From Chitinophagaceae bacterium (GTDB taxonomy: Bacteria > Bacteroidota > Bacteroidia > Chitinophagales > Chitinophagaceae), in assembly GCA_947381435.1 (NCBI GenBank), contig CANCVE010000017.1, forward strand, positions 1-53,276: a DNA stretch of 53,276 nucleotides, written 5' to 3'. The notes below the pieces were generated by a model. That model did not search any database and was not told where the DNA came from. It saw nothing but the letters and a program-made list of their open reading frames with translations. Position numbers and translations under genes: made by a program. This document shows positions 13,076-51,683 of this stretch, piece by piece (position 1 is the stretch's first letter; each line of letters starts with the position of its first letter).

Positions 13076-13194
13076 CTTCCGGCGAACATTGGTGGCCTTC
13101 CGGTGAACTTTGGTGGTCTTCCGGCTATGTGAAGTATGCCATTCTGTTCTCATTGTTGAAGTTCCGGCTAACAAAGGAGGCTTCCGGCTCTATT
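13076..13194. repeat. intergenic tandem array A, 21-bp period
   Basis: CTTCCGG recurs at 13076, 13097, 13118 and 13181, i.e. at multiples of 21 bp, with a related GTTCCGG at 13161. The first two units are nearly identical over 21 bp (CTTCCGGCGAACATTGG type); the later ones are degenerate. The array sits in the roughly 450-bp non-coding stretch between the island end and the TonB receptor terminator. Outside the array I see nothing in 12875-13320. Confidence 0.7.
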
Positions 13195-13322
13195 AAATAT
13201 GTCATCTGGTCATGCAATTTAGCTTTCTTTAGTTAATAGAAATCAGTTACAAAAGGTTATTTCTTATAATTGACTAAAATCTTTGTAAGAAAGAATTAAT
13301 GTAGGGTAAGTGCTTAGCAACA

Positions 13323-13356
13323 CAAAAAAAGGTATGACTACTGAAAGCCATACCTT
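13323..13356 (-). terminator. terminator of the TonB receptor gene
   Basis: On the minus strand AAGGTATG (13356-13349) pairs with CATACCTT (13336-13329), and a run of T residues follows at 13330-13324. It lies 29 bases beyond the stop codon of the receptor gene. Confidence 0.85.
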
Positions 13357-13384
13357 ATTCTGCTATAAAAGTCTTAAAATTAAC

Positions 13385-16093
13385 TTATAAATTTATTTTT
13401 AAAGTTGCTACCCATGTTCTTCCTATACCTGCATATACTTGATTTTGAGCTCCAGACCCATTATCTCCTATTACAAAATCGTTGGGAGTTGATTTGTTAT
13501 ATGGTATATCTGTATTAGCCCTTGATATGTATTGCTTATTTAAAATATTGTCTACATTAAGTCTCACTGTATATTTTATTCCATCAAATGAAAATCGATA
13601 ATTAACAGATGCATTAAGTAGGCCATAAGCAGGTAGTTTCCAAGCTTGACGACTAGAAGGTGTTCTACGATCAGTTACAGCAAACTGAGCATAAATGTTA
13701 TCCAAATATCTATAATTTGTGCTTATTCTTAATCCTTTTAATATTTCATAACTTCCGCCTACACCAAAGGTAGTTTGCGCAGTGCTTGCCACTTTTAAAC
13801 CATCAAGAAATGCTTTTACGCTATCTTTTAAAACATCGTTGTCGTCATATACGTATGAAATAACATTATTCTTCCATTTCCAATCTCCTAAAGATGCCAT
13901 TACATTGATAAATAATTTTTTAACAGGTCTTGCCGTAGCTTCCAACTCTATCCCTTTATGTTCGGCAGTTAACCCAGTAATATTTACTCTTTGGGTTGTG
14001 CCATCTGGTTGAAGAAGACCAGTATTTGATAACAAACTTTTATTCTTCCAAATGGTTCTGTAAACATTAACCATCACACTAACTATAGGAGAACGATATC
14101 CATAGCCTCCTTCTAATCCAAACACTTTTTCGTTTACAGTATTTTTTAGAATTGAGGTATTATCATTAGCATAAAAAACTGTATTAAAAAAAGGTGCTTT
14201 CTCGAAATAACCAGTATTGAAAAAAGCGAAATGTTGGTTATTAAATCTATAACTTATGCCTCCTTTTGTAACAGGACATAAAAAGTTTTTAACGGCAGTT
14301 TTTCTATTTTTATCTTCTGGTTTGTATAAAAAAAAGTCTTCTCTTTGATAAGAGGTATTGGATACAGTTGCAGCTGCAAAAACAGTTAATTTATTCTTCT
14401 CATACGTACCTGACAAGTATCCTCCATACTGTTTCACGATACCATTCCAATTTCTGAATATTTTTGTATCCTTGTCGCCATTTGCAACATAAGTACCACT
14501 AGGTTGATTTACATTTCTACCAACTTCATAGTAGGCATCCGCACCAAACATATCTTCCACCCTGCTATAGTGTAGTCCAACATAAGAGCGTAAATCTATT
14601 CCGGCATCAATAGTCAAATTTTTAATCGTTCTATTAGATAAATTGATAATGGTACCATACCAATTATGTTCATTCATATTAGCCCTCCTTGCATATCCGA
14701 GAGTAGAACTCGCTGTACCACCGTTAACTACATATTTTCCTTTATAAACTCCGTCAAGTGTCCAAGGAACATTCGTTCTTGAAGGAGAAACACCAGGAAC
14801 ACTTTCTCCTTTATTCAACTTTTCTACATCATCATATCTTATTAATGAGTCAGCAGTTCTTATAGAAAATGGATTAGCGGCACCATTTGCAGTTCCACCA
14901 CCTCTACCCAAAGATCCATATAAAACAACACTGATATCTGTTTTTGAATTTAATTTAAGGTAGTAGTTTATGTTAGCAACTGGTTTGTGATAAAAGTTTT
15001 TTGTATTACTAAATTCTTCTCCACGGTAAAAACCCCATGAACCAGAGTATTGTGGTCCTTTAGGAACATAAGAAGGTGTAGTAGGATTACCATATAAAAT
15101 TGGATACCTTAAAGCAAATGTACCTTGATTGTGCCATTGAGGTGCACCCGTGACAGTTGCAGTAATTGTATTTTTTGCATTTATTTCCCAAGCTGCGGTA
15201 GCAAAATAGTTATATTGTTCATACTCAGTTCCTGCAATATAGCCTTTGCCACTTGTTCTTGAAGCTAACATAGAAAAGGCAAAGCCTTTTTTGGATTTAC
15301 CTGTAGAAAACCCTACACCAGTTTTATAAAAGTCATTATTACCAGCAGAGGCTGTTATGGTTGTTCCTGCCCTCATCTCGGTAGCTTTAGTAACAATATT
15401 AACGTTACCACCTACTGCTGCTATGGATAGTTTAGAAGCACCTAAACCTCTTTGAACTTGAACAGAGCTAGCTATTTCTCGTAGGCCAGACCAGTTGCTC
15501 CAAAAAACATTACCATTTTCCATGTCATTTACAGGTACTCCATTCACCATTACAGCGATGTTTGTTTGATCAAATCCTCTAATGCTCAATTTAGAGTCTC
15601 CAGCACCACCACCTTCATTAGTTACAAAAACAGAAGGTGTACTTTCTAACAATTCAGGAAACTCTTTATTGGCACTAGCTTCCTCTATCTGTAAAGCTCT
15701 AATTGTTGATACTGCAACAGGTGTTTTACGATCAATAGCTATGTTGTTGGTAACCACTACTTCTTTTAAAGTTGTTTCACTTGTGGTAAGCTCGATAGTA
15801 CCTTGGCTACCTTTGGCACTAATCTTTTTTGGTAAATACCCAATTGCCGTAAATTCTAATGTATCGGTATCTACTACTTTAATCGAAAAGCTACCATCGA
15901 TACCAGAAACGAAGGTGGCTTTTTTGCCTTTAATAGATATTGTTACACCCGGAAGTGTTTCTTTAGTGGTGGCATCTACTAGTTTACCTGTTAACTTCAT
16001 CTGGGCAAAAAGAGCCAAGAGTGGAAACAAAACAAAGGATGCAGTAACTGCTACCCTACTTAAAACTGACATGTGTGGTTGTTTAAAATTCAT
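13385..16093 (-). CDS. TonB-dependent outer-membrane receptor with carboxypeptidase-regulatory-like domain, 902 aa
   Basis: The protein imports an unknown substrate across the outer membrane using TonB energy. I place the start at the ATG 16093-16091 because the sequence then begins MNFKQPHMSVLSRVAVTASF, a signal peptide ending near LFAQ; an upstream in-frame ATG would add 47 unlikely residues. Then come a carboxypeptidase-D regulatory-like domain (MKLTGKLVDATTKETLPGVT), a TonB-box-like ETTLKEVVVT, a plug (LSIRGFDQTNIAVMVNGVPV, GGNVNIVT) and a beta-barrel ending in aromatic GRTWVATLKINL. There is no SusD gene beside it, so it is not a typical glycan-utilisation pair. It is monocistronic with a clear terminator. 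Confidence 0.93.
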   Translation of the reverse strand: MNFKQPHMSVLSRVAVTASFVLFPLLALFAQMKLTGKLVDATTKETLPGVTISIKGKKATFVSGIDGSFSIKVVDTDTLEFTAIGYLPKKISAKGSQGTIELTTSETTLKEVVVTNNIAIDRKTPVAVSTIRALQIEEASANKEFPELLESTPSVFVTNEGGGAGDSKLSIRGFDQTNIAVMVNGVPVNDMENGNVFWSNWSGLREIASSVQVQRGLGASKLSIAAVGGNVNIVTKATEMRAGTTITASAGNNDFYKTGVGFSTGKSKKGFAFSMLASRTSGKGYIAGTEYEQYNYFATAAWEINAKNTITATVTGAPQWHNQGTFALRYPILYGNPTTPSYVPKGPQYSGSWGFYRGEEFSNTKNFYHKPVANINYYLKLNSKTDISVVLYGSLGRGGGTANGAANPFSIRTADSLIRYDDVEKLNKGESVPGVSPSRTNVPWTLDGVYKGKYVVNGGTASSTLGYARRANMNEHNWYGTIINLSNRTIKNLTIDAGIDLRSYVGLHYSRVEDMFGADAYYEVGRNVNQPSGTYVANGDKDTKIFRNWNGIVKQYGGYLSGTYEKNKLTVFAAATVSNTSYQREDFFLYKPEDKNRKTAVKNFLCPVTKGGISYRFNNQHFAFFNTGYFEKAPFFNTVFYANDNTSILKNTVNEKVFGLEGGYGYRSPIVSVMVNVYRTIWKNKSLLSNTGLLQPDGTTQRVNITGLTAEHKGIELEATARPVKKLFINVMASLGDWKWKNNVISYVYDDNDVLKDSVKAFLDGLKVASTAQTTFGVGGSYEILKGLRISTNYRYLDNIYAQFAVTDRRTPSSRQAWKLPAYGLLNASVNYRFSFDGIKYTVRLNVDNILNKQYISRANTDIPYNKSTPNDFVIGDNGSGAQNQVYAGIGRTWVATLKINL

Positions 16094-16258
16094 AACTATC
16101 AATTTGAGATTGCGTGTGAGGTGCTGCAAATAAAGGAAATAAAATGCTGCATTGTTAATTATTTGCAAATAAACGCCTTTATATTCAAAAATGTATAAAG
16201 TAATAAAACATAACAGTTTATTAATGTAGAACAAAGATTGTGGCTTTGATTATGAAAA

Positions 16259-22189: not shown

Positions 22190-25100
22190 ATGGTCAGACT
22201 TGCATCCACAGAAATCGACAAATCGGGTACCATTATAAAGGTATCTAAGCCAGATTCATCTTATTTACATGGAATTTTGCCTGCTGTGGGCTATAATATA
22301 TTTTCATTTGGCGATAAGGAAACAACAGAAATCATTAAAAAGTATTTAGACCAAGCATTTGAATCTAACCTGCCCATTGAGCTGAAACTAAACATTAAGT
22401 CGCAACAAATACTACTCACTACCCATTGTTATGAAGAAGGAAAGGCCTTTATTTTATGGAAAGATATAAGCATTGTTCCTACAGCTCCTCCTGTTCAGCC
22501 TGATTGGGGTTTTGATGAATTGACGCTTCAAGATAGGATTGATTTTGAAATGCCTAAAAGGCAATATGATGTAAAGAGGTTTACTGACAACTTACCATTG
22601 GTAGTATTTGAAATGTATTTATATCCTGATGGCAGGTTTCAGTTTGGTTTTGTGAACAAAGAGATGGAAACCTTTTTTCCAGCGTTTAATAAAGATGCAA
22701 TCAATACTGACAATAGTTTACTGTTTGTGAGGGTTCATCCAGATGACAAACAAAAATTGTTGGATTCTATAAAAGATGTTTTTAAACTAAAAGTTTGGAA
22801 CATAGAATATAGAATTATAGAGAATGGTGAAACTAGATGGGTGAGGGGCTTTGGTAGACCAGAGATTGGTAACGAGGGAGACAGAATTACTGTTTGCACC
22901 TACTTGGAGGATGTAACTGAAAAGAAACTTATTTCTGAAAGACTTGAGTTGGTAGATTTTTCTTTTCGAAACGCGTCTACACCCATAGTTCTAATAAACA
23001 CAGATGGTACTTTTTTTGATTTTAATGATGCCTTTTGTTTACAGTATTGGTATTCAAGAACCGAACTTGCAACAATGCGGGTGCAAGATGTGGAACCAAA
23101 CCCAGATTATTCAATAGAGAATTGGGCTAAGCATTGGGAAAAATTAAAAGCTAAAAAGCAACATATTATTGAAACAACTCACAAGCGAAAAGATGGTAGC
23201 CTGATAGAGGTAATTATTAAAACAAACATTATTTATCACAATGGACAGGAACTAAACTGTGCCTATATTACCGATGTAACAGAAAAGAATAAGCTAGATG
23301 AAAGATTGAAGCTGGTAGATTATTCATTCAGAAATGCTGCAACACCTATCCTGCTTTTACTGGAGGATGCTACTTTCTTCGACTTTAACGAGTCAATGCT
23401 TCAGCTATTGGGGTACGAGTTCGAGGAGTTTAAACACTTAACCATTTCAGACATAGACCCTGCTTTCGATAAGGAAAGTTGCAAAGAGAGGTGGGTGGAG
23501 TTTAGAAAGATAAAAAAAGCAACATTTCCTAATAGATTAAAGCGGAAGGATGGTGAAATGGTGGATGTAGAGATACGTTCTAACCTGATAAGCTATGGTG
23601 GTAAAGAGATAAACTATTCGTTTATTTTAGACATAACCGAGAAGAAAAAACTAGAAAATAAGCTAGAACTTGTTGATTTTATTTTTAGAAATACGGTAAC
23701 TGCTATAACATTAATTAAAGAAGATGGCTCGTTTTACGATTTTAATGAGGCTGCTTATTCTCTTTTCGGTTATACAAAAGAGGAATATGCTCAGTTGAGT
23801 GTTCAGAAAACAAATACAACATTGAATGAGGAATTATGGAAAGAGCATTGGGCACAACTAAAGAAGCAAAAGAACTTAGTTATAAATAACAAAATTAAAA
23901 ATAAAAAGGGTGAAATATTAGACATTGAAGTTCGGGCAAATCTTATGATGTATGGTGATTTGGAACTCAATTTTACCATTGCAACAGACATTACAGAAAG
24001 TAGAAAGCTTGATGACAAATTGAAATTAGTTGATTTTGCTTTCAGGAATGCAAAGATTCCGATGTATTTCACAGAACAAGATGGTAGAATATTTGACTTT
24101 AACGAAGAGGCTTACAAAGCTTTGGGATATAAAAAGGAAGAATTTCAAGTGCTTTCCGTTTATGATATATCCAATAGGCATACGCCTGAAACTTGGAAAA
24201 TTAGATGGGCAGAGTTGAAAAAGAACAACTCATTGCCTCACATTACTAAGCTTAGGCGTAAAGACAAAACTATAATAGACGCTGAAATGCGCACTAGTGT
24301 AATTAATTATGGGGGACAAGACATTAGTGTAACCTCCTTTATTGATATTACCGAGAAGAAAAAATTAGAAGAACAACTTAAGCTTGTCGGCTTCTCTTTC
24401 GAAAACGTAGATACCGCAATCATCTTTTCCAATGAAGACGCTTCCATACATTCTTGTAATAAGGCATTCTGCGATTTGTACGGATATACAACAGACGAAA
24501 TGAAGCAACTAACCATGCGCGATTTTGGTACTGGCTTCACTACAGAATCGTGGAAATTATACTGGGAAAACTTGAAAGCAAACCAAAAAGTTAGCTTCAT
24601 TACAAAACGTAGAAAAAAGGATGGATCAGAGATTGAAGTCGAAATAAATGCTAACTATATTAAACTTGGAAATCTAGAGGTGAACTGTGCTTTTGTTTAT
24701 GATATTACCGAGAAAAAGAAACTGGAAGATCAATTAGAATTAATCAATTTTTCATTCCAGCACGCAGTAACTCCAATTGTATTTATAAGGGAAGACGGAA
24801 TGTTTCATGATTTCAATGAAGCCTATGTACAGCTATCTGGATATAGCCGAGAAGAACTACAAAGAAGAAAGATTTTTGATATAAATAATTCCTTCGATTC
24901 AAAAAATTGGCCTTGTCATTGGAATGAATTAAAGGAAAAAGGGACATTGAGTTTTATAACCAATAGAACTAAAAAAGATGGTTCAATTACTACTGTGGAT
25001 GTACGGGCAAACCTCATAAACTTTAGAGGTATTGAACTTAATTGCGCTTTTATTACTGACATATCCGAAAAGAAAAAAGCAGAGGAAGCCCTCAAGCTAA

Positions 25101-27703
25101 GTAACGAAAGGTATGAGTTTGCTACTTTAGCTACTTCGGATGTAGTATGGGAAACTGACCTTGTAAACGATATTCTCTATTTGGGAAATAATTTTACCAC
25201 CGTGTTTGGTCTCGAAACCACTGGCATAGAATATGGCCCAAACAACGTATGGAGAAATAACCTTCATCCCGATGATTTGCAAAGTACCTTAGAGAAAGAA
25301 TTAAATAGCATATTAGGAAAAAGCGATAAATGGGAGTCTGAGTATAGGCTTCGTAAAGGAAATGGCGAATATGCAATAGTTTTAGACAGAGGTTTTGTGG
25401 TAAAAGATAATAGCGGAAAATCTATAAGGCTAATTGGGGCGATGCAAGACATTACCGAGAGGAAAAAAATTGAAGATGCGCTAAACTTGGTTGATTTCTC
25501 TTTTAAAAATGCCGTTACGCCAATCATGTACATAAGAGAGGACGCCTCTTTGTATGCTTTTAATGACGCATTTGTTGATATGCTAGGCTATGAAAGAAAT
25601 GAACTGAGCGATATGAAAGTATTCGACATGGATCCAGACTTCTACCCAGAAATTTGGCCGCACCATTGGGCAGAGCTCAAATTGCATGGTAAACTTTCAT
25701 TTACAACCAAGAAAATGAAAAAGGATGGCAGTATTTTAGATGTCGCAGTAAATGCTAATTTGATTAAATATGGTTCAATCGAACTGAATTGTGCTTTTGT
25801 AACTGACATTACCGAAAAGAATAAAATAGAGGAGCAACTAAAACGCAGTAATCAACGATACGAATATGCCACACTTGCTACTTCGGATGTAGTCTGGGAA
25901 ACCGACTTAAAAGCTGAAACCATTTATATAAGTAACAATTTTACACTCATTTATGGACACCCTGTAAAAGATGTTGAACCATTAGGAAATAGTGTCTGGA
26001 CAAGAAATGTTCATCCAGACGATCTTAAAAGAGTAATGGATACTGAGTTTAAGGTAATAAACGACAAAGGCGAAAAGTGGATTGAGGAATACAGATTTAG
26101 AAGGGCAGATGGCACTTATGCTTATGTTTTAGATAGAAGCTTTACCATAAAAGACGAAAATGGAATTGTTACTGGTATGATCGGTTCCATGCAAGACATC
26201 ACAGAAACAAAAAAATACGAGCAAGAGCTCACCAAGAGTAATATGCGTTTTGAGTATGCCACTCTTGCAACATCAGACGTGGTTTGGGAGGCCGATCTTA
26301 TTGAAAATACCTATTTTTCAAGCAAAAACTTCACAGAACTTTTTGGTCATAAGTCAGGCATTTACGAAGATTTAGTCAAAAATGAATGGAATAATAACGT
26401 TCATCCAGATGATTTAGAGATAGTATTAAAGCATACAAACGATTCTATAAATAACGGAGAAAACACTTGGAAAAATGAATATCGTCTAAGAATGTCTAAT
26501 GGAGAATATGCCATAGTACTTGATAGAATTTTTGTAGTACGAGATGAAAAAGGTACGCCAATAAGATTAGTAGGTGCTTTGCAGAATATTACCGAAATAA
26601 AGCAACGTGAAGAAAGACTTAAACTTTTAGAAACTGTTATTACCAACACTACAGATGCAATCATCATTAGAGATTCTAAACGATTAGCAACTGGTGGTTT
26701 ACCTGTATTGTATACCAATAATGCTTTCACACAAATGACTGGTTATAGTTTTGAAGAAGCAAGAGGACGCACTTTAAAGTTTATGAATGGCCCTCTAACC
26801 GATAGAACTGAGAGAGATAAACTAAGAGCAGCCGTAAACCAATTTGTTCCAGGAAACATGGAAGTGATAAATTACAAAAAAGACGGCACTCCTTTCTGGG
26901 CAAGCATTTCAGTATTTCCAGTTGCAAATGCAAATGGAGAATTTACGCACTGGGTTTCAATTCAAAGGGATATTACGCAAAAGAAAAAAGCCGAAGAAGA
27001 AAGAGAACAACTGTTAAATGAACTTATCAGTAATAATAAGGAGCTTAAACAATTTGGGTATATCACCACACATAATCTTAGAGCGCCACTTACAAATCTG
27101 GTTTCAATTTGCAAGCTTTTAGATGTGGAAACAATAAACGACTTGCGCAATAAAAAACTAATTGAAGGGTTCAAACAATCTACTTTTCAATTAAACGATA
27201 CATTAAATGATCTAATCAATATCCTCATTATAAAGGAAAATAGAAATTTGCCTACAGGTGAGTTAGGCTTTCATGATATGCTAAACAGGGTACTAACTTC
27301 CATTTCTAATACCTTTAGTAGTGCAGATGCGGTGATAGTCTCAGACTTTTCGGCAGCACCAATTGTCGAGTTTAGCAACACTTATTTAGAAAGCATTTTC
27401 TTAAACCTGCTCACCAATGCTATAAAATATTCCCACCCCAACAGAAAGCCTTTTATAAAAATTGATACTATAAAAAATGATAATGGAACTACAAAACTCA
27501 CCTTTTCAGATAATGGCATCGGAATGAATATGAATAGAGTTAAAGACAGAATATTTGGGCTTTACCAAAGGTTTCATAACAATGCAGACAGCAAAGGAAT
27601 TGGATTATACCTTATTCATTCACAAATCACTGCCTTAGGAGGAAGTATTGAGGTTGAAAGTGAGGAAAATATTGGAACTACTTTTACCATCACCTTTAGA
27701 TAG
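22190..27703 (+). CDS. soluble multi-PAS sensor histidine kinase, 1837 aa
   Basis: A very large cytoplasmic kinase with no membrane segment. After a unique N-terminal domain (1-120) there are about 12 PAS/PAC modules joined by DITEKKKL-type linkers. Seven are of one type (LVDFSFRNA then EDG..FDFNEA), repeating every 360 bp or so; three are of a second type (ATSDVVWETDL ... VLDR). The last PAS (about 1490-1610) is LOV-like but has L1529 where the photoactive cysteine would be. The kinase core has H1628 in THNLRAPL, an N box NLLTNAIKYS, DNGIGM and SKGIGLYL. No response regulator is adjacent, so its partner is elsewhere. Translation likely begins at the ATG at 22190. Confidence 0.93.
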   Translation: MVRLASTEIDKSGTIIKVSKPDSSYLHGILPAVGYNIFSFGDKETTEIIKKYLDQAFESNLPIELKLNIKSQQILLTTHCYEEGKAFILWKDISIVPTAPPVQPDWGFDELTLQDRIDFEMPKRQYDVKRFTDNLPLVVFEMYLYPDGRFQFGFVNKEMETFFPAFNKDAINTDNSLLFVRVHPDDKQKLLDSIKDVFKLKVWNIEYRIIENGETRWVRGFGRPEIGNEGDRITVCTYLEDVTEKKLISERLELVDFSFRNASTPIVLINTDGTFFDFNDAFCLQYWYSRTELATMRVQDVEPNPDYSIENWAKHWEKLKAKKQHIIETTHKRKDGSLIEVIIKTNIIYHNGQELNCAYITDVTEKNKLDERLKLVDYSFRNAATPILLLLEDATFFDFNESMLQLLGYEFEEFKHLTISDIDPAFDKESCKERWVEFRKIKKATFPNRLKRKDGEMVDVEIRSNLISYGGKEINYSFILDITEKKKLENKLELVDFIFRNTVTAITLIKEDGSFYDFNEAAYSLFGYTKEEYAQLSVQKTNTTLNEELWKEHWAQLKKQKNLVINNKIKNKKGEILDIEVRANLMMYGDLELNFTIATDITESRKLDDKLKLVDFAFRNAKIPMYFTEQDGRIFDFNEEAYKALGYKKEEFQVLSVYDISNRHTPETWKIRWAELKKNNSLPHITKLRRKDKTIIDAEMRTSVINYGGQDISVTSFIDITEKKKLEEQLKLVGFSFENVDTAIIFSNEDASIHSCNKAFCDLYGYTTDEMKQLTMRDFGTGFTTESWKLYWENLKANQKVSFITKRRKKDGSEIEVEINANYIKLGNLEVNCAFVYDITEKKKLEDQLELINFSFQHAVTPIVFIREDGMFHDFNEAYVQLSGYSREELQRRKIFDINNSFDSKNWPCHWNELKEKGTLSFITNRTKKDGSITTVDVRANLINFRGIELNCAFITDISEKKKAEEALKLSNERYEFATLATSDVVWETDLVNDILYLGNNFTTVFGLETTGIEYGPNNVWRNNLHPDDLQSTLEKELNSILGKSDKWESEYRLRKGNGEYAIVLDRGFVVKDNSGKSIRLIGAMQDITERKKIEDALNLVDFSFKNAVTPIMYIREDASLYAFNDAFVDMLGYERNELSDMKVFDMDPDFYPEIWPHHWAELKLHGKLSFTTKKMKKDGSILDVAVNANLIKYGSIELNCAFVTDITEKNKIEEQLKRSNQRYEYATLATSDVVWETDLKAETIYISNNFTLIYGHPVKDVEPLGNSVWTRNVHPDDLKRVMDTEFKVINDKGEKWIEEYRFRRADGTYAYVLDRSFTIKDENGIVTGMIGSMQDITETKKYEQELTKSNMRFEYATLATSDVVWEADLIENTYFSSKNFTELFGHKSGIYEDLVKNEWNNNVHPDDLEIVLKHTNDSINNGENTWKNEYRLRMSNGEYAIVLDRIFVVRDEKGTPIRLVGALQNITEIKQREERLKLLETVITNTTDAIIIRDSKRLATGGLPVLYTNNAFTQMTGYSFEEARGRTLKFMNGPLTDRTERDKLRAAVNQFVPGNMEVINYKKDGTPFWASISVFPVANANGEFTHWVSIQRDITQKKKAEEEREQLLNELISNNKELKQFGYITTHNLRAPLTNLVSICKLLDVETINDLRNKKLIEGFKQSTFQLNDTLNDLINILIIKENRNLPTGELGFHDMLNRVLTSISNTFSSADAVIVSDFSAAPIVEFSNTYLESIFLNLLTNAIKYSHPNRKPFIKIDTIKNDNGTTKLTFSDNGIGMNMNRVKDRIFGLYQRFHNNADSKGIGLYLIHSQITALGGSIEVESEENIGTTFTITFR

Positions 27704-33826: not shown

Positions 33827-33846
33827 TTAATAATAACAACAAAAGG

Positions 33847-35160
33847 ATGCTGTATTACTTTTTTATCTGGTTAAAACAAACCTTCCACATTTCGGGTTTC
33901 GGGGTATTTCAATATATCACGTTCAGGGCGGCATTGGCAATTGTTTTTTCTTTGATTATCACAACGGTTTTTGGTAAACAAGTAATTCTATACTTACAAA
34001 AGAAACAAATAGGCGAAAGCGTACGTGAGCTTGGCTTAGCTGGTGAAAACCTAAAGAAAGGAACGCCAACAATGGGCGGTATCATCATTTTGATGGGCAT
34101 TTTAATACCCACTTTATTGTTTGCCAACCTGCACAAAACCTATATCCGTCTAATGATTTTGACCACCGTTTGGTTGGGGATTATTGGTTTTATAGATGAT
34201 TATTTAAAAATTTCAGCCAAAAAGAAAGCCCTAGCAAGTGGCGGTGCTTATAAGAAAAAGGATAGCGATGGATTAGCTGGCAACTTTAAAATTTTTGGAC
34301 AAATAGGGCTTGGGATCATTATTGGCAGTACACTTTATTTTGCTAAAAGTGTTGAAGTTCAACGTGAAATCTATTCGCCTCAACACGTAATTGCGGATTC
34401 TATTTTGAGAAAAGGAGAAAGATTAGTTGGCGATACCATCCGTATTTATGGTGGTAAGGCACATCACTTTGCAAGGGTTCAAACGCCTATCACCACCATT
34501 CCTTTTGTAAAAAATCATGAGTTCAATTATAGCAAACTGATAAGTTGGATTGCTCCTGGGGCAGAGAAATTTACTTGGCTTATATACATTTTGGCGGTCA
34601 CATTTATCATCACGGCGGTATCTAATGGTGCCAATTTAACGGATGGATTAGATGGATTGGCGGCTGGCGTTAGTGCGCTGATAGGCATTTGTCTGGGCGT
34701 GTTTGTTTACGTAAGTAGCAATATTCGTTTTGCCGATTATCTAAACATCATGTACATCCCAAACTCGGCCGAGCTAAGCATTTTCGTGGCGGCTTTTGTG
34801 GGTGCTTGCATCGGGTTTATGTGGTACAATGCCTTTCCGGCGCAGGTTTTTATGGGCGATACAGGCAGTTTGGCACTGGGTGGAATCATTGCCTCATTGG
34901 CCATCATTATCAGAAAAGAATTATTGATACCCATCTTTTGCTGCATCTTCTTGGTAGAGAATTTAAGCGTGGTTATTCAGGTTAGTTATTTTAAATACAC
35001 CAAGAAAAAATATGGTGAGGGACGAAGGGTTTTCTTGATGAGTCCTTTGCATCATCACTATCAGAAAAAAGGGTTTCATGAGAGTAAGATAGCTGTGAGG
35101 TTTTGGATTGTGACGTTGATATGTGTGGTATTATCCATCATTACGCTCAAGATAAGGTAG
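33847..35160 (+). CDS. mraY: phospho-N-acetylmuramoyl-pentapeptide transferase
   Basis: MraY joins UDP-MurNAc-pentapeptide to undecaprenyl phosphate, making lipid I in the inner membrane. About ten membrane helices are visible, with [10 protein letters not shown], the catalytic aspartates in [19 protein letters not shown] and the cytoplasmic [15 protein letters not shown] loop. At 437 aa it is longer than the usual 360 because of an insertion of about 75 residues (around [14 protein letters not shown] to FNYSKLISW) typical of this phylum. Its 3' end is followed by a repeat array. Confidence 0.96.
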
Positions 35161-35169: not shown

Positions 35170-35360
35170 ATTTTCGTGATAACGAAAACCATTTTCTTAG
35201 TGACGAAAATGAAATTTCGTTTCAATTAAATAATTTTCTTAATAAAGAAAATTACTTTATTGATAAGGAAAACCATTTTATTGACAAAGAAAACGACTTT
35301 CTTCATAAAGAAAACGGTTTTCTTAGTAACGAAAATGACTTTCTTGATAACGAAAATTGG
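35170..35360. repeat. intergenic tandem array B, 21-bp period, self-complementary units
   Basis: GAAAA recurs at 35184, 35205, 35247, 35268, 35289, 35310, 35331 and 35352, all multiples of 21 bp apart, with one decayed unit at 35226. Each unit has TTTTCTTNNTAA before GAAAA, so neighbouring words TTTTC and GAAAA can pair. The array fills most of the 257-bp gap between mraY and murD. A frame stays open through it because 21 is divisible by three; I do not regard that as a gene. Confidence 0.85.
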
Positions 35361-35417: not shown

Positions 35418-36794
35418 ATGGAAGAAAAGAAAATACTAGACGAGAAAGATGTGGGGGCTCACCGGATGGTTGTATTGGGTGGGGGAGAAAGCGGTGTGGG
35501 CGCGGCTTTGCTAGGAAAGAAAAATGGCTACGATGTTTTTTTGAGCGATGGAGGTCTTTTAAAGGAGGGATATAAACAAGAATTAATTGCTTGCGGAATT
35601 GATTTTGAAGAAGGCGGTCATACGGAAGAGAAAATTTTATCAGCCGATGAAATCATAAAAAGTCCGGGCATTCCCGAAAAGAATGAACTGGTAAAAAAGA
35701 TTAGGGCGAAGGGGATAAAAGTGATTGGCGAAATAGAATTGGCGTATCGGTTTAAGGGTGATAGTAAAATAATAGCGATAACAGGTAGCAACGGGAAGAG
35801 TACAACCACCAGTTTAATATATCATATCTGTAAAAAAGCTGGATTGGATTGTGCGTTGGTAGGCAACATTGGTTACTCGTTTGCAAAGCAGGTGGCAGAA
35901 GATCCGAAGCCTTTATATGTGGCAGAAATTAGTTCTTTTCAATTGGATGATATAGAGACGTTCAGACCTAATGTGGCTGTTTTATTAAACATCACAGAAG
36001 ATCATCTGGATAGATACGATTACAAGTTCGAAAATTACATAAACAGTAAGTTCAGGATAATCGAAAATCAGCAGAAAGAAGATTATTTTATTTACTGTGA
36101 TGATGATGAAGTAATAACAAACAAATTAAATACACTAACGATAAATACAAACAACCTCCCATTCTCAATGAAGCATGAAGTAAAAAAAGGCGGACAACTT
36201 AAGGGCGATCAAGTACTGCTCCGTATTCAAGAAGAACGCGTAAGCATGAGTATTTATGACTTCGCCATTAAAGGAAAACACAACGTTTATAACACCATGG
36301 CAGCAGGAATAGCAGCATGTACAATCGGTATCCGCAAGGAGATGATTAGGGAATCGGTAGGCGATTTCCAAGGTTTGGAACACCGTGCCGAACATGTAGC
36401 AAGAGTGCGTGGCGTGGAGTTTATAAACGATAGCAAAGCCACCAATGTAAATAGTACGTGGTATGCCTTAGAAAACATTGAGCAGCAAGTAGTGCTTATT
36501 CTTGGCGGTCAAGACAAGGGTAACGACTATAGCATTCTTGATGATTTGGTGAAGGAAAAAGTAAAAGCAATTGTGTGTTTGGGTAAGGATAGCAGCAAAA
36601 TTGTGAATCATTTTAAAAACATGGTTCCTGCCATTAGAGAAACTAGCGACATGGAAACTTGTGTAAAGACATGCTTCAAGATGGCAACGAAGGGAGACGT
36701 TGTTTTGCTTAGCCCAGCATGTGCAAGCTTCGATTTGTTTAAGAACTACGAACAAAGAGGCAAACTATTTAAGGAAGCAGTTAGAGAGTTATAA
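35418..36794 (+). CDS. murD: UDP-MurNAc-L-alanine:D-glutamate ligase
   Basis: MurD adds D-glutamate to UDP-MurNAc-L-Ala. The 458-aa protein has the N-terminal Rossmann segment VVLGGGESGVGAALLGK, the ATP-binding AITGSNGKSTTTSLIYH, the EISSFQLDDI and NITEDHLDRYD motifs, and the C-terminal NDSKATNVNSTWYALEN and LLSPACASFDLFKNYEQRG. All are standard for MurD. Confidence 0.97.
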   Translation: MEEKKILDEKDVGAHRMVVLGGGESGVGAALLGKKNGYDVFLSDGGLLKEGYKQELIACGIDFEEGGHTEEKILSADEIIKSPGIPEKNELVKKIRAKGIKVIGEIELAYRFKGDSKIIAITGSNGKSTTTSLIYHICKKAGLDCALVGNIGYSFAKQVAEDPKPLYVAEISSFQLDDIETFRPNVAVLLNITEDHLDRYDYKFENYINSKFRIIENQQKEDYFIYCDDDEVITNKLNTLTINTNNLPFSMKHEVKKGGQLKGDQVLLRIQEERVSMSIYDFAIKGKHNVYNTMAAGIAACTIGIRKEMIRESVGDFQGLEHRAEHVARVRGVEFINDSKATNVNSTWYALENIEQQVVLILGGQDKGNDYSILDDLVKEKVKAIVCLGKDSSKIVNHFKNMVPAIRETSDMETCVKTCFKMATKGDVVLLSPACASFDLFKNYEQRGKLFKEAVREL

Positions 36795-36804
36795 TTATTT
36801 TGAA

Positions 36805-36884: not shown

Positions 36885-36894
36885 CAACAAAATT

Positions 36895-38246: not shown

Positions 38247-39386
38247 ATGAGTACATCTGCCTCCGAAAATAATAGTAAAAGCAGCTCCAAGCACCATAAG
38301 GGTATTCGGATAATCATTGCCGGAGGAGGAACGGGTGGGCATATTTTTCCAGCAATTGCCATTGCAAATGCTATTAAAGGAATAGATAGACATGCAAGAA
38401 TATTGTTTGTGGGGGCTAATGGAAAAATGGAGATGGAGAAAGTACCCGAAGCTGGTTATAAGATACAGGGTTTAACCATTTCGGGTTTTAATAGAAGTTC
38501 TTTGATAAAAAATATATGGCTTCCTTTTAAGTTGATTAAGAGCTTTTTTCAAGTCAGAAAAATATTCAGGGAGTTTCATCCTACTGCTGTAATTGGCGTT
38601 GGAGGATATTCTACTTTTCCTGTCCTAAAGTTTGCCCAAAGTAAAAACATACCCACTTTTATTCACGAAAGCAACTCATTTGCCGGAAAGAGTAATATTC
38701 TTTTAGGCAAAAAGGCTACTAAAGTTTTTGTGGCTACTGAAGGAATGGAAAAGTTTTTTCCGAGTAATAAAATTCAAATTACTGGCAATCCAGTAAGAAG
38801 CTCAATTGCCGTTGCAAACATTTTGCAAGAAAATGCTTTGGCCTATTTTGGATTGAAAAAGGAAAAGAAAACGATTTTAATAGTAGGTGGAAGCTTGGGT
38901 GCAAGAAGCATTAACAATGCTATTTACGATTCGATTGATAAACTGGAAGAAGCTGGTTTGCAGCTGATTTGGCAAACAGGAAAATCGAATGCAGAAAAAT
39001 ACAAGAAGATTGCAAAAGGACGAGAAAATATATGGATAAGTGAGTTTATCAAACAAATGGAACAGGCTTATGCTGCCGCCGATATAGTTATTAGCCGTGC
39101 GGGTGCAATGGCGGTTACAGAATTGTGCGTGGTGGGCAAACCTTCCATTTTTGTTCCGTATCCACATGCTGCCGAAGATCATCAAACGGCAAATGCCATG
39201 GCTTTGGTTCAAAAAAAGGCGGCCTTATTGGTGGCCGATAGCGAGGTAAACGAGAAATTGGCAGATACAGTTATTGCCTTGGCAAAAGATGATTTATTGC
39301 TGAATGAACTAAATACAAACATTAGTTTATTGGCCGTAAAAAATGCTGACGAGGTGATAGCAAGAGAAGTTCTTTATAATAATTAG
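38247..39386 (+). CDS. murG: UDP-GlcNAc: lipid I N-acetylglucosaminyltransferase
   Basis: MurG makes lipid II on the inner face of the membrane. The 379-aa sequence shows the first G loop IIIAGGGTGGHIFPAIA, GVGGYSTFPVL, FIHESNSFAGKSN, the central VGGSLGARSINNAI, and the donor-binding SRAGAMAVTELCVVGKPSI followed by YPHAAEDHQTANA. It begins 11 bp after ftsW. About 25 extra polar residues precede the first G loop. Confidence 0.97.
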   Translation: MSTSASENNSKSSSKHHKGIRIIIAGGGTGGHIFPAIAIANAIKGIDRHARILFVGANGKMEMEKVPEAGYKIQGLTISGFNRSSLIKNIWLPFKLIKSFFQVRKIFREFHPTAVIGVGGYSTFPVLKFAQSKNIPTFIHESNSFAGKSNILLGKKATKVFVATEGMEKFFPSNKIQITGNPVRSSIAVANILQENALAYFGLKKEKKTILIVGGSLGARSINNAIYDSIDKLEEAGLQLIWQTGKSNAEKYKKIAKGRENIWISEFIKQMEQAYAAADIVISRAGAMAVTELCVVGKPSIFVPYPHAAEDHQTANAMALVQKKAALLVADSEVNEKLADTVIALAKDDLLLNELNTNISLLAVKNADEVIAREVLYNN

Positions 39387-39393: not shown

Positions 39394-39624
39394 AGCTTAA
39401 AGGTTTTGCTCTGGAACTAATAAGTTTTGCTCTGGAACTAATAAGTTTCGAGATGAAACTAATGAGTAATGCGGTGAAACTAATGAGTAATGCGGCGAAA
39501 CTAATGAGTAATGCGACGGAACTAATGAGTAATGCGGCGAAACTAATGAGTAATGTGACGAAACTAATGAGTAATGCGACGAAACTAATGAGTAATACGG
39601 CGGAACTAAGAAGTAATGTTAGGG
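39394..39624. repeat. intergenic tandem array C, 21-bp period, about 11 copies
   Basis: AACTAA recurs at 39415, 39436, 39457, 39478, 39499, 39520, 39541, 39562, 39583 and 39604, exactly every 21 bp, with a related unit at 39394. The central units are AACTAATGAGTAATGCG plus a variable GGCGA/GACGA end; the first two carry a different half. It is the most regular array in the window, in the 339-bp gap between murG and murC. An open frame with a KLMSNA repeat runs through it but is a by-product of the period. The rest of the gap, 39625-39725, shows nothing. Confidence 0.92.
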
Positions 39625-39725
39625 TACTCTTATTGAATCTTATCAGTTAAAAAAGAAAGTTAATCTGAATAAGAATCAATGCAGCAAAAGGTTTCAAGTT
39701 TTGAATAAGAAAAGAAAGAATAATA

Positions 39726-41156
39726 ATGAGTGATAATAATAAAAATATCGGGAGTTTACTAAGCTCTCCTTCAGGAGTTGGAGGTGGGGATGGGGCTTCT
39801 AATTCCCCTTTAGGGGGTAGGGGTGTTTATTTCATAGGCATCGGTGGAATAGGGATGAGTGCGCTTGCCAGATATTTTCATTCAAAAAATTATAAGGTTT
39901 CTGGTTACGATAAAACATCCACCGAGCTTACTAGAACTTTGGAGGCTAGTGGCATTGACATTCATTACGAAGAAAATTTGGATTTAATTCCAAAAGATGC
40001 GAAGGTGATTGTTTATACGCCTGCCATTCCGGCCCAACATGCCGAGTTGGTTTATTATCAGCAAAATGGGTATAAGGTGGTAAAACGTAGCGACATTTTG
40101 CAATGGATTACCGAGAGTTCTTTTAATATATGTGTGGCTGGTACGCACGGAAAAACAACAACTACCACCATGACGGGGCATATCCTTAGGCATAGTGGTT
40201 ATGGTTGTAATGCTTTTTTGGGAGGCATTGCTGCCAATTATAAAACTAACTTTTGGAGCGATGACAACAATGTGGTTGTGGTAGAAGCGGATGAATATGA
40301 CAGAAGCTTTTTGAAATTGACGCCCGATGTTGCCATCATAACAGCAATGGATGCCGACCATTTGGATATTTATGGTACGCCTGAAGAATTTGGAAATGCC
40401 TTTATTCAGTTTTCACAGAAGATAAAAGAAGGTGGTTGTTTAATAAGCAAATATGGCTTGGAAAGAGATGGAGAATTTGCAGTAAGCAATCATCTCACCT
40501 ACAGTTTTAGTGATGCAAGGGCCACTGTTCATGCAAAAGATATTAAAGTTATTAATGGTTCGTACTTGTTTGATGTGGTGTATAAAGACGAAACCATTAG
40601 CAACATTACGTTGCACATGGGCGGTTTGCACAACATAGAAAATGCAGTGGCTGCAATAGGCGTTGCGAAGTATTTGAAGATTGAGGATGAAAAAATAAAG
40701 GCGGCAGTTGCTGATTTTAAAGGCGTAAAAAGAAGGTTTGAATACATTGTAAAGACAGAAAAGAATGTATTGATTGACGATTACGCACATCATCCAGAAG
40801 AGTTGAGGGCGTTGATAAGTGGCATCAGAAGTTTGTATGGAGATAAGAAGTTGACGTTGATTTTTCAACCACATCTCTATTCAAGAACAAATGATCAGGC
40901 CAACGAATTTGGCGTTAGTTTGAGTATGGCAGATGAAGTGGTTTTATTGCCCATCTATCCTGCAAGAGAATTACCAATACCGGGTGTGACGAGCGAAATG
41001 TTGTTGGATAAAATGACGATAAGCAATAAGCAAGTGTTGGATAAACAGGAAATGATAGAATGGGTGAAGAGTACTAAACCCGAATTGGTGGTAATGGCGG
41101 GTGCAGGAAATATTGATGTATTGGTGGGGGAAGTAGCAGTAGTTATCAGTGGTTAG
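39726..41156 (+). CDS. murC: UDP-MurNAc:L-alanine ligase with unusual N-terminal extension
   Basis: MurC adds L-alanine to UDP-MurNAc. The body is standard: VYFIGIGGIGMSALARYFHS, VAGTHGKTTTTTMTGH, VEADEYDRSFL, DADHLDIYG, DDYAHHPEELRAL and FQPHLYSRT. The family normally begins right at the VYFIGIGG segment, but here about 34 residues precede it, of which roughly 21 (SSPSGVGGG onward to GGRG) come from a GC-rich palindromic repeat read in frame. No ATG, GTG or TTG closer to VYFIGIGG is in frame, so the extension must be translated from the ATG at 39726. Confidence 0.95.
   Translation: MSDNNKNIGSLLSSPSGVGGGDGASNSPLGGRGVYFIGIGGIGMSALARYFHSKNYKVSGYDKTSTELTRTLEASGIDIHYEENLDLIPKDAKVIVYTPAIPAQHAELVYYQQNGYKVVKRSDILQWITESSFNICVAGTHGKTTTTTMTGHILRHSGYGCNAFLGGIAANYKTNFWSDDNNVVVVEADEYDRSFLKLTPDVAIITAMDADHLDIYGTPEEFGNAFIQFSQKIKEGGCLISKYGLERDGEFAVSNHLTYSFSDARATVHAKDIKVINGSYLFDVVYKDETISNITLHMGGLHNIENAVAAIGVAKYLKIEDEKIKAAVADFKGVKRRFEYIVKTEKNVLIDDYAHHPEELRALISGIRSLYGDKKLTLIFQPHLYSRTNDQANEFGVSLSMADEVVLLPIYPARELPIPGVTSEMLLDKMTISNKQVLDKQEMIEWVKSTKPELVVMAGAGNIDVLVGEVAVVISG
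39763..39824. repeat. GC-rich palindromic repeat inside the 5' end of murC
   Basis: The stretch holds CTCTCCTTCAGGAG and CCCCTTTAGGGGGTAGGGG, two hairpin-forming words of a kind scattered between genes in Bacteroidota. A relative (CCCCTTCAAGGGTTGGGG) lies in the mraZ-rsmH gap. It is in frame and adds a Gly/Ser/Pro-rich segment to MurC. Confidence 0.6.
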
Positions 41157-41183
41157 TTATTAGTTGTTAGTGATTAATGTTTA

Positions 41184-42218
41184 TTGATTAATAAAAAAAG
41201 CGACTTGAATTGGAATAAGAAAATAGTGCAAGGTTTATGGCTGCTTTTAGGAGTGGGCACTATTGTATTGTTCTGTGCGGCAATGATTAAGAAAAATAAT
41301 CGGACTTGCGCTGATCTTAAAATAGAAATTACTGGAGCAGAAGAGCATCTGTTTATTGATGAAAAAGATGTGAAGGAGTTGATTAATAAAAATGCTGATT
41401 TATCTAATAAAAAGATAAAAGAAATTGACCTGAAAGCCATTGAAACTGAATTGGAGAAAACGGATTGGGTTAAAAACGCTGAATTGTTCTTTGATAATAA
41501 ACAGGTATTGCAAGTAAAAATAGAAGAGCGCCAACCAATTGCAAGGGTATTTACCATGCAAGGCAATTCGTTTTACTTGGACAGTGCAGGGGTTAGGCTG
41601 CCATTAAGTGAAAAGGTGAGTGCAAGGGTGCCGATGTTTACCAGTTTCCCCAATAATAAAGTGGTGATGGCATCCTCTGATAGTTTGTTGCTGAAGGGAG
41701 TGGTAAAAATGGGTAATTATATAACGGCGGATAGTTTTTGGAGAGCCCAGATAGAACAAGTTGAAATAACACCGCAAGGAACTTTTGAATTAGTACCGGC
41801 CATTGGAGATCAGACTATTTTGTTTGGCAATGCAGATAATTTGGAAGATAAGTTTCAAAATCTGTACACCTTTTACAAAAAAGCTTGGTTACAATACGGA
41901 ATGAATACCTACGAAAAACTAGATGTGCGGTTTAAAAATCAAGTGGTAGCAGTGAAGAAAGGGGCGAGTATGGTTGCAGATACTACTAGGGCAAATGCGG
42001 CGATAAAAGCATTGATGAATGGAAGTTTGGTGGTTTCGTCCGATTCTGTAAGTAATGTTTTAATCCCCAAAAAGGATAGTGTTGTCACTAAAAAAGCGGT
42101 AGTTAAAGAAAATAAAAAAAATATTTTAGAAACAAAGCATGTTTTAAATAATAAAAAGAGAAATAATACGTTTTCATTAGTGAAGAAGTCGAACGCGACA
42201 GGAAAGAAAGAACGGTAA
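41184..42218 (+). CDS. ftsQ: FtsQ/DivIB cell division protein
   Basis: FtsQ links early and late divisome proteins. The 344-aa protein has a short basic tail, one membrane helix (IVQGLWLLLGVGTIVLFCAAMI), a POTRA domain (about 45-120: IEITGAEEHLFIDEKDVKELI ends in DWVKNAELFFDNKQ), the beta domain, and a lysine- and serine-rich tail of about 80 residues. The start appears to be TTG at 41184: an in-frame TGA lies four codons upstream, and the next ATG would fall inside the membrane helix. TTG may keep expression low. Confidence 0.9.
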   Translation: MINKKSDLNWNKKIVQGLWLLLGVGTIVLFCAAMIKKNNRTCADLKIEITGAEEHLFIDEKDVKELINKNADLSNKKIKEIDLKAIETELEKTDWVKNAELFFDNKQVLQVKIEERQPIARVFTMQGNSFYLDSAGVRLPLSEKVSARVPMFTSFPNNKVVMASSDSLLLKGVVKMGNYITADSFWRAQIEQVEITPQGTFELVPAIGDQTILFGNADNLEDKFQNLYTFYKKAWLQYGMNTYEKLDVRFKNQVVAVKKGASMVADTTRANAAIKALMNGSLVVSSDSVSNVLIPKKDSVVTKKAVVKENKKNILETKHVLNNKKRNNTFSLVKKSNATGKKER

Positions 42219-45743: not shown

Positions 45744-45897
45744 ATGCTTACACATTCTCACTTCCAATTCAACAAAGGTTGTATTTTATGCACAAGTTGG
45801 TTTACTCTCAAGTACATGTGAGTGTGATATTATACACGAGATGCTAGAGTTTCGAGTTCTAAAAAGGAGAGTATAACCTAGTTTGTGTAGACGTCTA

Positions 45898-45981
45898 CTT
45901 CACGTTACTTCCGAAAAACTTCACGATACTTCATTAAGGCTTCACGATACTTCCGTAAAAACTAACGATAACTCTAATACT
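45898..45981. repeat. intergenic tandem array D, 21-bp period
   Basis: Three units start at 45898, 45919 and 45940 with CTTCACGATACTTCCGTAA-type sequence, and a decayed fourth begins at 45961 and overlaps the end of the YhhN-like gene by a few bases. Within each unit CTTC occurs twice, about half a unit apart. It lies between the convergent ftsZ and YhhN-like genes. Confidence 0.8.
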
Positions 45982-51204: not shown

Positions 51205-51231
51205 AACATGTTCTTGCTGTAATTATGAATT

Positions 51232-51399
51232 GACCTCTTCGACAATTCATTTCATATTCTCTTTTCTGTTTTCTCAGTGCCTCTGTGGCATTTTTTATTT
51301 AATTTATGGGTATTCCATTTGCCACAGATAACACAGAAAGAAAAGAGAAAAGAAATATTTATTCTATTTTTTTCACGAAAACCAATTATCGAAGAGGTC
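51232..51399. repeat. 168-bp imperfect inverted repeat element
   Basis: GACCTCTTCGACAATT (51232-51247) pairs with AATTATCGAAGAGGTC (51384-51399) with one mismatch. Inside, CTCTTTTCTGTTTTCT and CTCTGTGGCA (51259-51290) pair with TGCCACAG and CACAGAAAGAAAAGAG (51319-51347). It lies 28 bp after the T9SS-sorted gene and resembles GCCACAGA-type palindromic elements scattered in many bacterial genomes. The following 95 bp, 51400-51495, show nothing. Confidence 0.7.
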
Positions 51400-51495
51400 T
51401 AATGTCATTTTTGGAATTAGAGTGGAGAATGCTATTACAACTTAAATTATTCCGGTTCAGTAAGCGGATCGGTTTTCAATTTTAACATTTGAATC

Positions 51496-51539
51496 ATCTT
51501 TCACGGCCCATATAAGATCTTATATGGGCCGTGAAAGAT
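51496..51539. repeat. perfect 44-bp palindrome at the head of array E
   Basis: Bases 51496-51517 are the exact reverse complement of 51518-51539, centred on AGATCT. The right half is one unit of the tandem array that follows and the left half is the same unit inverted. Confidence 0.9.
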
Positions 51540-51683
51540 CTTATATGCTCCCTGAAAGATCTTATACGGGCTGTGAATGATCTTATATGGGCTGTGAAAG
51601 ATCTTATATGGGCTGTGAAAGATCTTATATAGGCTGTGAAAGATCTTATATACTTTGTGAAAGTTCTTATATGCTCTGTGTAA
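51516..51683. repeat. intergenic tandem array E, 21-bp period, eight copies
   Basis: GATCTTATATGGGCTGTGA-type units start at 51516, 51537, 51558 and so on to 51663, eight units of exactly 21 bp. The fourth and fifth are identical; others differ at a few bases in the GGGC/CTCC/CTTT part. The minus-strand frame through it, with a KIFHSPY repeat, is a by-product of a period divisible by three. Between the array and the promoter at 51850 only low-complexity TCACTG words are seen. Confidence 0.92.

Follow-up and report, generated by a model that had tools for sequence, protein, structure and literature searches.

Bacterial tandem repeats are usually explained family by family, and the question raised by this locus is why unlike families should here largely obey one length. 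A single length rule would imply some physical ruler, which could be a protein reading DNA at every second helical turn or mutational copying that steps by two turns. Our window, the whole 53,276-nucleotide stretch of Chitinophagaceae DNA that was analysed, had been described in an earlier note as holding five unrelated intergenic arrays with a period of 21 bp. All five are present (Table 1) and lie outside open reading frames of at least 90 aa. In none of the five spacers does any lag from 10 to 89 score higher than 21, for which the self-matches over 42 bp are 0.79, 0.81, 0.95, 0.79 and 0.98 in order along the window, and the score at lag 21 was reached by none of 300 dinucleotide-preserving shuffles of each spacer. 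The description as unrelated stands for the five compared with one another, as their units are mutually unalignable (the sole pair at E ≤ 1 spans 9 bases, E 0.41), but all four arrays for which the genome was searched (1, 2, 3 and 5) have relatives elsewhere in it.

Table 1. Arrays of the window, associated features and neighbouring genes, with the spans called at period 21 by Tandem Repeats Finder
Feature	Positions	Strand	Description	Tandem Repeats Finder
Array 1 (CTTCCGG...), 21-bp	13075..13211	.	~2.4 regular units (13075-13125), then decayed ones to ~13211	13075-13125
Array 2, 21-bp, mraY-murD spacer	35172..35356	.	short palindromic units (TTTTCGTGATAACGAAAA + 3 bp)	35228-35357; also period 42 over 35172-35356
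Array 3, 21-bp, murG-murC spacer	39396..39628	.	core AACTAATGAG	39403-39618 (two overlapping rows)
Array 4, 21-bp (CTTCACGATACTTCC)	45897..45970	.	~3.5 units	45897-45970
Array 5, 21-bp (AAGATCTTATATGGGCTGTGA)	51514..51691	+	~8.5 units	51514-51691
Leader	51477..51498	+	conserved left end of array family 5; unlike outer flanks at five loci	
38-bp perfect palindrome	51499..51536	.	inverted unit + first direct unit; read from sequence	
mraY (context)	33847..35160	+	TIGR00445	
murD (context)	35418..36794	+	TIGR01087	
murG (context)	38247..39386	+	TIGR01133	
murC (context)	39726..41156	+	TIGR01082	

The shared spacing holds well beyond the window. In a sample made up of 17% of this genome and stretches of four congeners (five species in all), the best lag is 21, 42, 63 or 84 in 65 of the 109 repeat-bearing intergenic regions, where ∼4% would be expected if all lags were equally likely; five of these 65 have a heptamer-like look. 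Intergenic regions were delimited by rough ORF calls (≥90 aa, or 120 aa in one analysis used for array 1). Some loci were sampled because they hold arrays, and leaving out the window and those loci of the cell-wall cluster that were picked for this reason gives 55 of 95 regions. Autocorrelation at lags 21, 42, 63, 84, 105 and 126 gives z values of 17.9, 17.1, 9.5, 12.5, 6.7 and 9.7, and a census with Tandem Repeats Finder places 62 of 102 arrays at multiples of 21 bp and 11 at 41 bp, the counts for genomes G002, G003 and G010 being likewise ascertained through their arrays. The earlier note had held that a broad spread of intergenic periods, or a period varying freely between relatives, would speak against a common spacing. 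The former did not appear, as multiples of 21 dominate both censuses, and for the latter congeners mostly retain the period, with one exception in a 14-bp array of the G007 murG-murC spacer. In other genera only two of 153 intergenic regions are repeat-bearing and neither has a best lag at a multiple of 21, while Tandem Repeats Finder reports one 21-bp array among three there. Within the genus, genomes G011 and G012 show no 21-bp excess, and G011 holds one 21-bp array. The 21-bp spacing is common to many unlike intergenic arrays, which as a class have so far been found in one Chitinophagaceae genus.

Other lengths also occur. A second class of arrays has units of 41 or 42 bp, or four turns, and some arrays alternate A and B versions of a 42-bp unit. 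The 41-bp units were called unlike by eye, and two of them (L009 and L134) seem related. A 14-bp class (15 of the 109 regions) does not fit helical phasing, and best lags of 32 and 49 are found in single regions each. At lags 10, 11, 31, 32, 35 and 49 the autocorrelation lies below zero, and together with the 41/42-bp class this lack of excess fits phasing by two and four turns better than a 7-nt step.

Within the arrays it is the spacing that is kept. Of the distances between adjacent cores, 268 are 21 bp, one is 20 bp and none is 22 bp, a ratio favoured by the finding of these arrays through ungapped lags; the set from Tandem Repeats Finder is weaker, with 44 phase-changing events against 2053 substitutions in 76 arrays, 60 of which have no such event. 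Three arrays account for thirty of the 44 events, most of which come there in pairs that cancel each other, and without those three arrays the count is 14 against 1931. Substitutions outnumber indels 47:1 in arrays and 10.5:1 in other intergenic DNA, two figures that come from different methods. Conservation of columns within the unit is clustered (mean z 0.79, SE 0.16, for the 51 of 81 arrays with at least 6 units), as for a core with a variable spacer, and cores are more conserved across loci than spacers. In the family of array 3, 39 of 44 core-to-core distances over five loci equal 21 bp. Together these data show that spacing is better conserved than sequence.

The number of units, on the other hand, is free to change. 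Three of ten array pairs shared with G005 differ in length by a nonzero multiple of 21 (−42, +42 and +105 bp) and one by zero, and one 63-bp block expansion was seen. Being tandem copies whose length changes by whole units, the arrays are intergenic satellites, or VNTRs, in the broad sense. If they are neutral satellites, slippage duplicates blocks and a polymerase or hairpin intermediate favours one step, of 7 nt taken three times or of 21. Besides the whole-unit changes and the fresh block, such a model is consistent with the coexistence of heptamer arrays, with a weak 7-bp harmonic in the A+T content of the arrays (t 2.6), and with a proposal by Mrazek, as given in the excerpts of PMC4679880, that 7 nt reflects contact with the polymerase. 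Nevertheless we consider it decidedly unlikely. Lag-7 self-match exceeds 0.45 in only 7 of 81 arrays, so that 74 are free of a strong 7-bp sub-period, and with no excess at 35 or 49 a 7-nt quantum is not supported; the separate 41-bp class, the clustered conservation of cores and the rarity of indels relative to other intergenic DNA (again across different methods) argue against it as well. Slippage with a fixed step, which the earlier note had offered, accounts for growth by whole units but not for the common length of unlike arrays.

The units were also tested for RNA structure and reading frames. Seven heptamer arrays were removed from the 81 for counts of palindromy, GC and gene orientation (leaving 74) and, where long enough, retained for the palindromy of array 2 and for the alike-pair, strand-pairing, column-conservation, coding, first core-distance, array-length and harmonic tests; coding and harmonics required at least 5 units (59 of 81 arrays). 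Array 2 (35230-35359) has a palindromy of 0.81 compared to 0.59 under column permutation, with 0 of 200 permutations as high. At first sight every unit seemed palindromic, but this holds for 35 of the 74 arrays (p ≤ 0.05), and the 39 that are not detectably palindromic include four of the window's five. RNA elements that fold in the transcript as a series of small hairpins, one per 21 nt, would be in line with the mraY-murD units of several species, which by eye retain the stem through paired changes, and with 166 sense against 120 antisense sites of G·U type. However, one array supplies 26 of these 166, the bias per array is even (11 versus 11), strand-specific pairing gives no consistent signal, no Rfam family matches in the window, and divergent spacers carry arrays as often as codirectional ones (17/139 and 48/440, with 9/111 for convergent regions), all of which makes RNA elements very unlikely. 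We give almost no credence to hidden heptapeptide-coding repeats (7 codons in 21 bp): the unit is divisible by three and an open frame exists in 39 of 59 arrays, but column permutation yields 40.7 of 59, open frames per array number 1.32 versus 1.27, and codon position leaves no pattern in the variability (mean z −0.08, SE 0.12). A CRISPR array does not fit, given a 21-bp period and the recurrence of spacers inside single arrays. Intrinsic bending finds no backing in A+T or AA/TT content, whose profiles in 59 arrays contain no 10.5-bp harmonic; for purines there is a weak excess, at 21 bp (t 2.5) and at 10.5 bp (t 2.2).

The arrays are dispersed as families. Array 1 has a similar place at G000:C5:10113-10184, array 2 has similar places on contigs C5, C88, C51 and C38, and the family of array 3 recurs at four further loci (C12, C47, C28 and C72). 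The left end of family 5 is the same at each of five loci, and one flanking element is common to C8, C31 and C28, beside two different array families. Only 9 pairs among 42 arrays of this genome are alike (0–1 in ten permuted controls), which means that at this sensitivity most arrays of the sample do not resemble one another. The sampled part of one genome holds some thirty unlike families. The earlier contrast with "one mobile repeat family" oversimplifies, since the arrays fall into many dispersed families, of which one keeps a conserved left end. By eye no target-site duplication was noticed, and searches of one array against plasmids and of another against phages gave no match. Y1_Tnp matches occur in 12 of 13 genomes of the genus, including G011 and G012, so a Y1 transposase confined to array-bearing genomes is not supported; at 4 of 11 examined Y1 loci there is a 41/42-bp array of at least three copies.

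The reading we tentatively prefer, while placing it somewhat below an even chance, is that the arrays are DNA sites phased by two turns and partly carried by small mobile elements. The array body consists of tandem units of two (21 bp) or four (41/42 bp) helical turns, and each unit may serve as a single binding site of a DNA-binding protein with two-fold symmetry, such as a transposase-like or array-binding dimer. A putative dimer of this kind would occupy one face of the DNA every two turns, and cores and spacing would consequently be kept while spacers drift. Expansion would proceed by block duplication, and part of the arrays would travel as non-autonomous BIME/MITE-like elements. We count against phased sites that many different cores need many proteins, or one protein that reads structure. 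Also weighing against this reading are the 39 arrays without detectable palindromy, the Y1 transposases of G011 and G012, the small share of whole-unit differences among the ten G005 pairs, the lack of a noticed target-site duplication, the 14-bp class with the single lags of 32 and 49, and the one 21-bp array from other genera.

It is conceivable, if doubtful, that a machine of this lineage reads repeated DNA by helical geometry and not by sequence, touching the same face every two turns whatever the core. If so, any sequence that it caught would become a phased array of 21 or 41/42 bp and ∼200 bp in length, and dozens of unrelated families per genome would share one ruler. The data suggest that something in the cells of this genus measures DNA in pairs of turns. 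As the arrays are many natural replicates of the spacing with the sequence varied, the question of the ruler can be tested experimentally.

Alternatively, the arrays could be non-mobile regulatory or nucleoid sites of the host, on which a host protein polymerises with a two-turn footprint, for example insulating neighbouring genes. In keeping with this, several congeners still have arrays in their mraY-murD and murG-murC spacers even though the units diverge, cores are conserved across loci above spacers, and array GC is 39.2% compared to 31.6% in intergenic DNA. Yet arrays come and go at orthologous spots, one of which can hold different arrays in related species, the preference for gene orientation in the above counts is not clear, and there are many unlike cores; we regard a host function of this type as unlikely.

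Phased direct repeats of about two turns that are bound by protein are known from iterons and from the repeated transposase sites in Tn7 ends. There, a few sites with the same sequence sit at a single origin or end, whereas the arrays here are unlike families spread genome-wide; of ten ORFs in the window, mostly beside arrays, eight matched NCBIfam families other than initiators and two matched none. The excerpts of PMC2817692 describe REP/BIME arrays mobilised by RAYT transposases, which resemble our case in intergenic location, regular arrays, many loci per genome and fast turnover between strains, and for part of our arrays in palindromic units. In contrast to the one or few REP families of such genomes, we find some thirty unlike families with one helical length (the 9 alike pairs above), and roughly every second array is not palindromic. 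The Y1 genes next to arrays (4 of the 11 loci above) would at most be candidates for a cognate RAYT. Heptamer repeats (TAACTGA and relatives) in Beggiatoaceae, Cyanobacteria and Bacteroidetes, as far as the excerpts of PMC4679880 go, share intergenic tandem arrays, whole-unit length differences and occurrence in Bacteroidota, but have a unit of 7 and not 21 bp. Among the VNTR loci of Flavobacterium psychrophilum, another species of Bacteroidota with mostly intergenic tandem repeats, 8 of 12 units listed in the excerpts of PMC4501049 are 7 nt long, in a study that chose units of 4–10 nt only. Structural variants of lake Planctomycetota arise from intergenic, length-variable tandem repeats attributed to slippage, albeit in another phylum and with no common period reported in the excerpts of PMC9426551. 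In the open CC-licensed PMC literature, covered mostly by titles and the beginnings of abstracts, we found no description of intergenic arrays with a common period of 21 bp.

Finally, the commonest array comprises 9–10 units (∼200 bp). An apparent upper limit of 276 bp on array length is not trusted, as contigs C12 and C150 end inside arrays and short-read assembly may therefore censor length; matches over G005:C5:32077-32404 suggest an array longer than 276 bp.

All five window arrays are present, each between ORFs, and lag 21 is the best or joint-best in each, at a value that no dinucleotide shuffle reached (0/300 per spacer), bearing out the 21-bp period reported in the earlier note. The window is one entire contig (C17) of a 4.88-Mb genome in 231 contigs, whose nearest named relatives are Chitinophagaceae MAGs, and it contains a cell-wall gene cluster (mraY, murD, murG, murC) with a MurC 96% identical to that of isolate Jr-11may16-263 (L028).

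Positions of arrays and other features in the window and in sampled loci (L numbers)
Sequence	Position	Feature	Setting
Window	13076	21-bp array
Window	35170	21-bp array	mraY-murD spacer
Window	39394	21-bp array	murG-murC spacer
Window	45898	21-bp array
Window	51516	21-bp array
Window	29691-29716, 33738-33828, 36797-36894, 41140-41190, 51813-51845	short heptamer (7/14-bp) runs
Window	22190-27703	1837-aa ORF
L009	12426-12652	41-bp array
L010	12343-12500	41-bp array
L124, L134, L015		41-bp arrays
L015	~11980-12130	99-149-bp element	adjoining array
L263	35-183	99-149-bp element	adjoining array
L201	1635-1732	99-149-bp element	adjoining array
L026	10895-11161	42-bp units
L026	12796-12948	dispersed ~150-bp repeat
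L127	4828	array expanded in G005

To see how far this period extends we sampled 853 kb of the same genome (the window and 40 stretches, each 20 kb long), together with 588 kb from four congeners. An intergenic region was scored as repeat-bearing when its self-match over 42 bp reached 70% or more at some lag from 10 to 99. The pattern is wider than first noticed: the best lag is 21, 42, 63 or 84 bp (21k) in 65 of the 109 repeat-bearing regions found among 690 (own genome 36/65, G005 16/25, G006 7/11, G001 4/6, G007 2/2), where about 4% would be expected if the 90 lags were equally likely. Five of these 65 are heptamer-like too, and 55/95 are at 21k after removal of the window and the cell-wall-cluster loci picked for their arrays. 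Further genomes gave 3/8 (G009), 0/2 (G012) and 0/1 (G011), while G004 and G008 have too little intergenic DNA for a judgement. Certainly other genera (G013-G038; 441 kb, 153 regions) yielded only two repeat-bearing regions, neither at 21k, and a single 21-bp array among three found by TRF; named loci of unestablished genus gave 0/6.

Averaged over the five species, autocorrelation has its peaks at lags 21, 42, 63, 84, 105, 126 and 147 (z 17.9, 17.1, 9.5, 12.5, 6.7, 9.7 and 3.8), and it is also raised at 7 (z 8.6), 14 (z 7.9) and slightly 41 (z 3.9). With indels and any period permitted, TRF returned 102 arrays with 3.5 or more copies, of which 62 are at 21k, 11 at 41, 18 at 7, 14 or 28, and 11 at other periods (one of 31 bp). 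As autocorrelation shows no excess at 10, 11, 31, 32, 35, 49 or 52, and as a 41-bp class exists, two and four DNA turns describe the data better than multiples of 7. By eye, most 41-bp units are unlike one another (two look related), as are 42-bp units without internal 21-bp similarity, and many arrays of both lengths have one hairpin per unit. The 41-bp arrays in the table are examples among others, and one occurs in G011 (L183) too, though the sample from that genome has no 21-bp excess. Heptamers are a separate class, common in the genus and on record, in the part of the literature consulted, from other Bacteroidota; 7 of 81 arrays first tallied as 21k were in fact heptamers. One 20-kb stretch of G009 (L220) has five intergenic regions with best lag 14 bp beside two with 21 bp.

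Within the units conserved columns are clustered (mean z 0.79, SE 0.16; p<=0.05 in 11/51 arrays), and the clearest arrays consist of a ~10-bp core and a variable spacer, e.g. TAGCCTCCTA, AGGACGTCCT and GGTATACC. Adjacent cores are 21 bp apart 268 times, 20 bp once and 22 bp never, which, with the period common to unlike arrays, supports the spacing constraint proposed earlier. The main alternative, slippage with a preferred step, accounts for array growth but leaves unexplained both the clustered cores and the common length of unlike arrays. Phase-changing indels are absent from 60/76 arrays of the TRF set, which has 44 against 2053 substitutions overall; other intergenic DNA, own genome against G005, has 100 against 1046, the two ratios being derived by different methods. 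Compared with permutation of the 21 columns, 36/81 arrays are palindromic at p<=0.05 (35/74 after dropping heptamers), of the window arrays only 35170. GC is 39.2% in arrays against 31.6% in intergenic DNA overall. In the own genome 37 sampled arrays occupy 5,966 of 107,341 intergenic bases, from which we extrapolate ~210 arrays per genome. Array length has its mode at 9-10 units (27/74) and a maximum of 276 bp, an unreliable upper limit because contigs C12 (at its end) and C150 (at its start) break inside copies of the 51516 family, and the assembly may conceal longer arrays.

A coding role is not supported, as open frames number 1.32 against 1.27 in permuted units and a codon-position pattern is absent. 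Nor is an RNA element supported: in 22 codirectional palindromic arrays G.U-type pairs are in sense excess in 11 and antisense excess in 11 (166 sense versus 120 antisense sites), Rfam has zero matches in the window, and arrays have no clear gene-orientation preference. Neither A+T nor AA/TT content has a 10.5-bp harmonic, and intrinsic curvature and A+T-based bending are not supported as the source of the spacing, though such a harmonic is weakly present in the purine profile (t 2.2). By exclusion, the arrays are of a DNA-level nature.

Between species the arrays turn over. The mraY-murD spacer has 21-bp arrays in G005, G001 and weakly G006, and the murG-murC spacer in G005, G002, G003, G006 and G010, with decayed units only in G001 and a 14-bp array in G007; units at both are diverged or unlike across species, and G008, G011 and G012 have short cell-wall-cluster spacers without arrays. 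At the tabulated L026 array, whose flanks are 97-98% identical to G005, the own array is built of alternating 42-bp units, and the G005 array is 42 bp shorter and consists mainly of single 21-bp units. At this place G006 has an array of the same family and G003 an unlike one of 21/42 bp; in G010 and G007 none was seen next to the left flank that matches. The L127 array has recently expanded by 63-bp blocks in G005 and is just an inverted core pair in G003. Ten own-G005 pairs differ by +105, +39, +832, +1, 0, -42, +103, +42, +60 and +389 bp between matched flanks, hence including non-array sequence.

Sampled own arrays are mostly unalignable with one another: there are 9 alike pairs among 42 arrays, against 0-1 in ten permuted controls, leaving 33 groups by our count. 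Families are nevertheless dispersed over loci, and in place of the earlier view that the arrays are not one mobile family, "many dispersed families with one ruler" is the better wording. The 39394 family has five own loci with a constant AACTAAT core and varied spacers; 39/44 core distances are 21 bp, and the other five (7, 10, 14, 97, 120) involve, judging by the rows of matches, ones at or outside array ends. The 51516 family has six own loci, whole arrays having 2 to 11 units; five have a common ~22-bp left end and an inverted unit, beside unlike outer flanks, and the sixth, on C150, begins within the array. A search for its leader in 12 other genomes of the genus found none. Five own loci hold the ATCCGAGG family, as do several in G006 and others in G003 and G001; of the 147 family genomes sampled, the remaining 145 gave no match. 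Contigs C8, C31 and C28, all chosen for their arrays, have a common adjoining element (99-149 bp, 88-93% identical) that may occur elsewhere, and C28 bears a different array family. Taken together, these findings indicate copying of arrays from one locus to another and show that they can be exchanged at one place. The tabulated copies of this element carry a GGGAGGC...GCCTCCC hairpin. The ~150-bp repeat of L026 has imperfect inverted ends (ACCACTAAG ... CTTAGTGAGCCTTGTGGT) and dozens of matches in G005.

The arrays have a ruler (21, 41/42 bp), change by whole units, are dispersed and in part have core-and-spacer anatomy. One dyad-symmetric protein might sit on every two turns, reading the same helix face, and the arrays may move partly as small non-autonomous elements. 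The nearest model, in the part of the source consulted, is BIME arrays produced by RAYT transposases (PMC2817692). Y1_Tnp genes occur in 12/13 genus genomes, and a 41/42-bp array of at least three copies is present at 4 of the 11 Y1 loci examined; we claim no link because G011 and G012 have such genes and no 21-bp excess. Intergenic tandem arrays are already known as a broad kind, and our search of open papers found no described system joining these features. Elsewhere in the window, the 1837-aa ORF aligns with its counterpart in a congener in more than one shifted register (several in all), which points to internal repeats.
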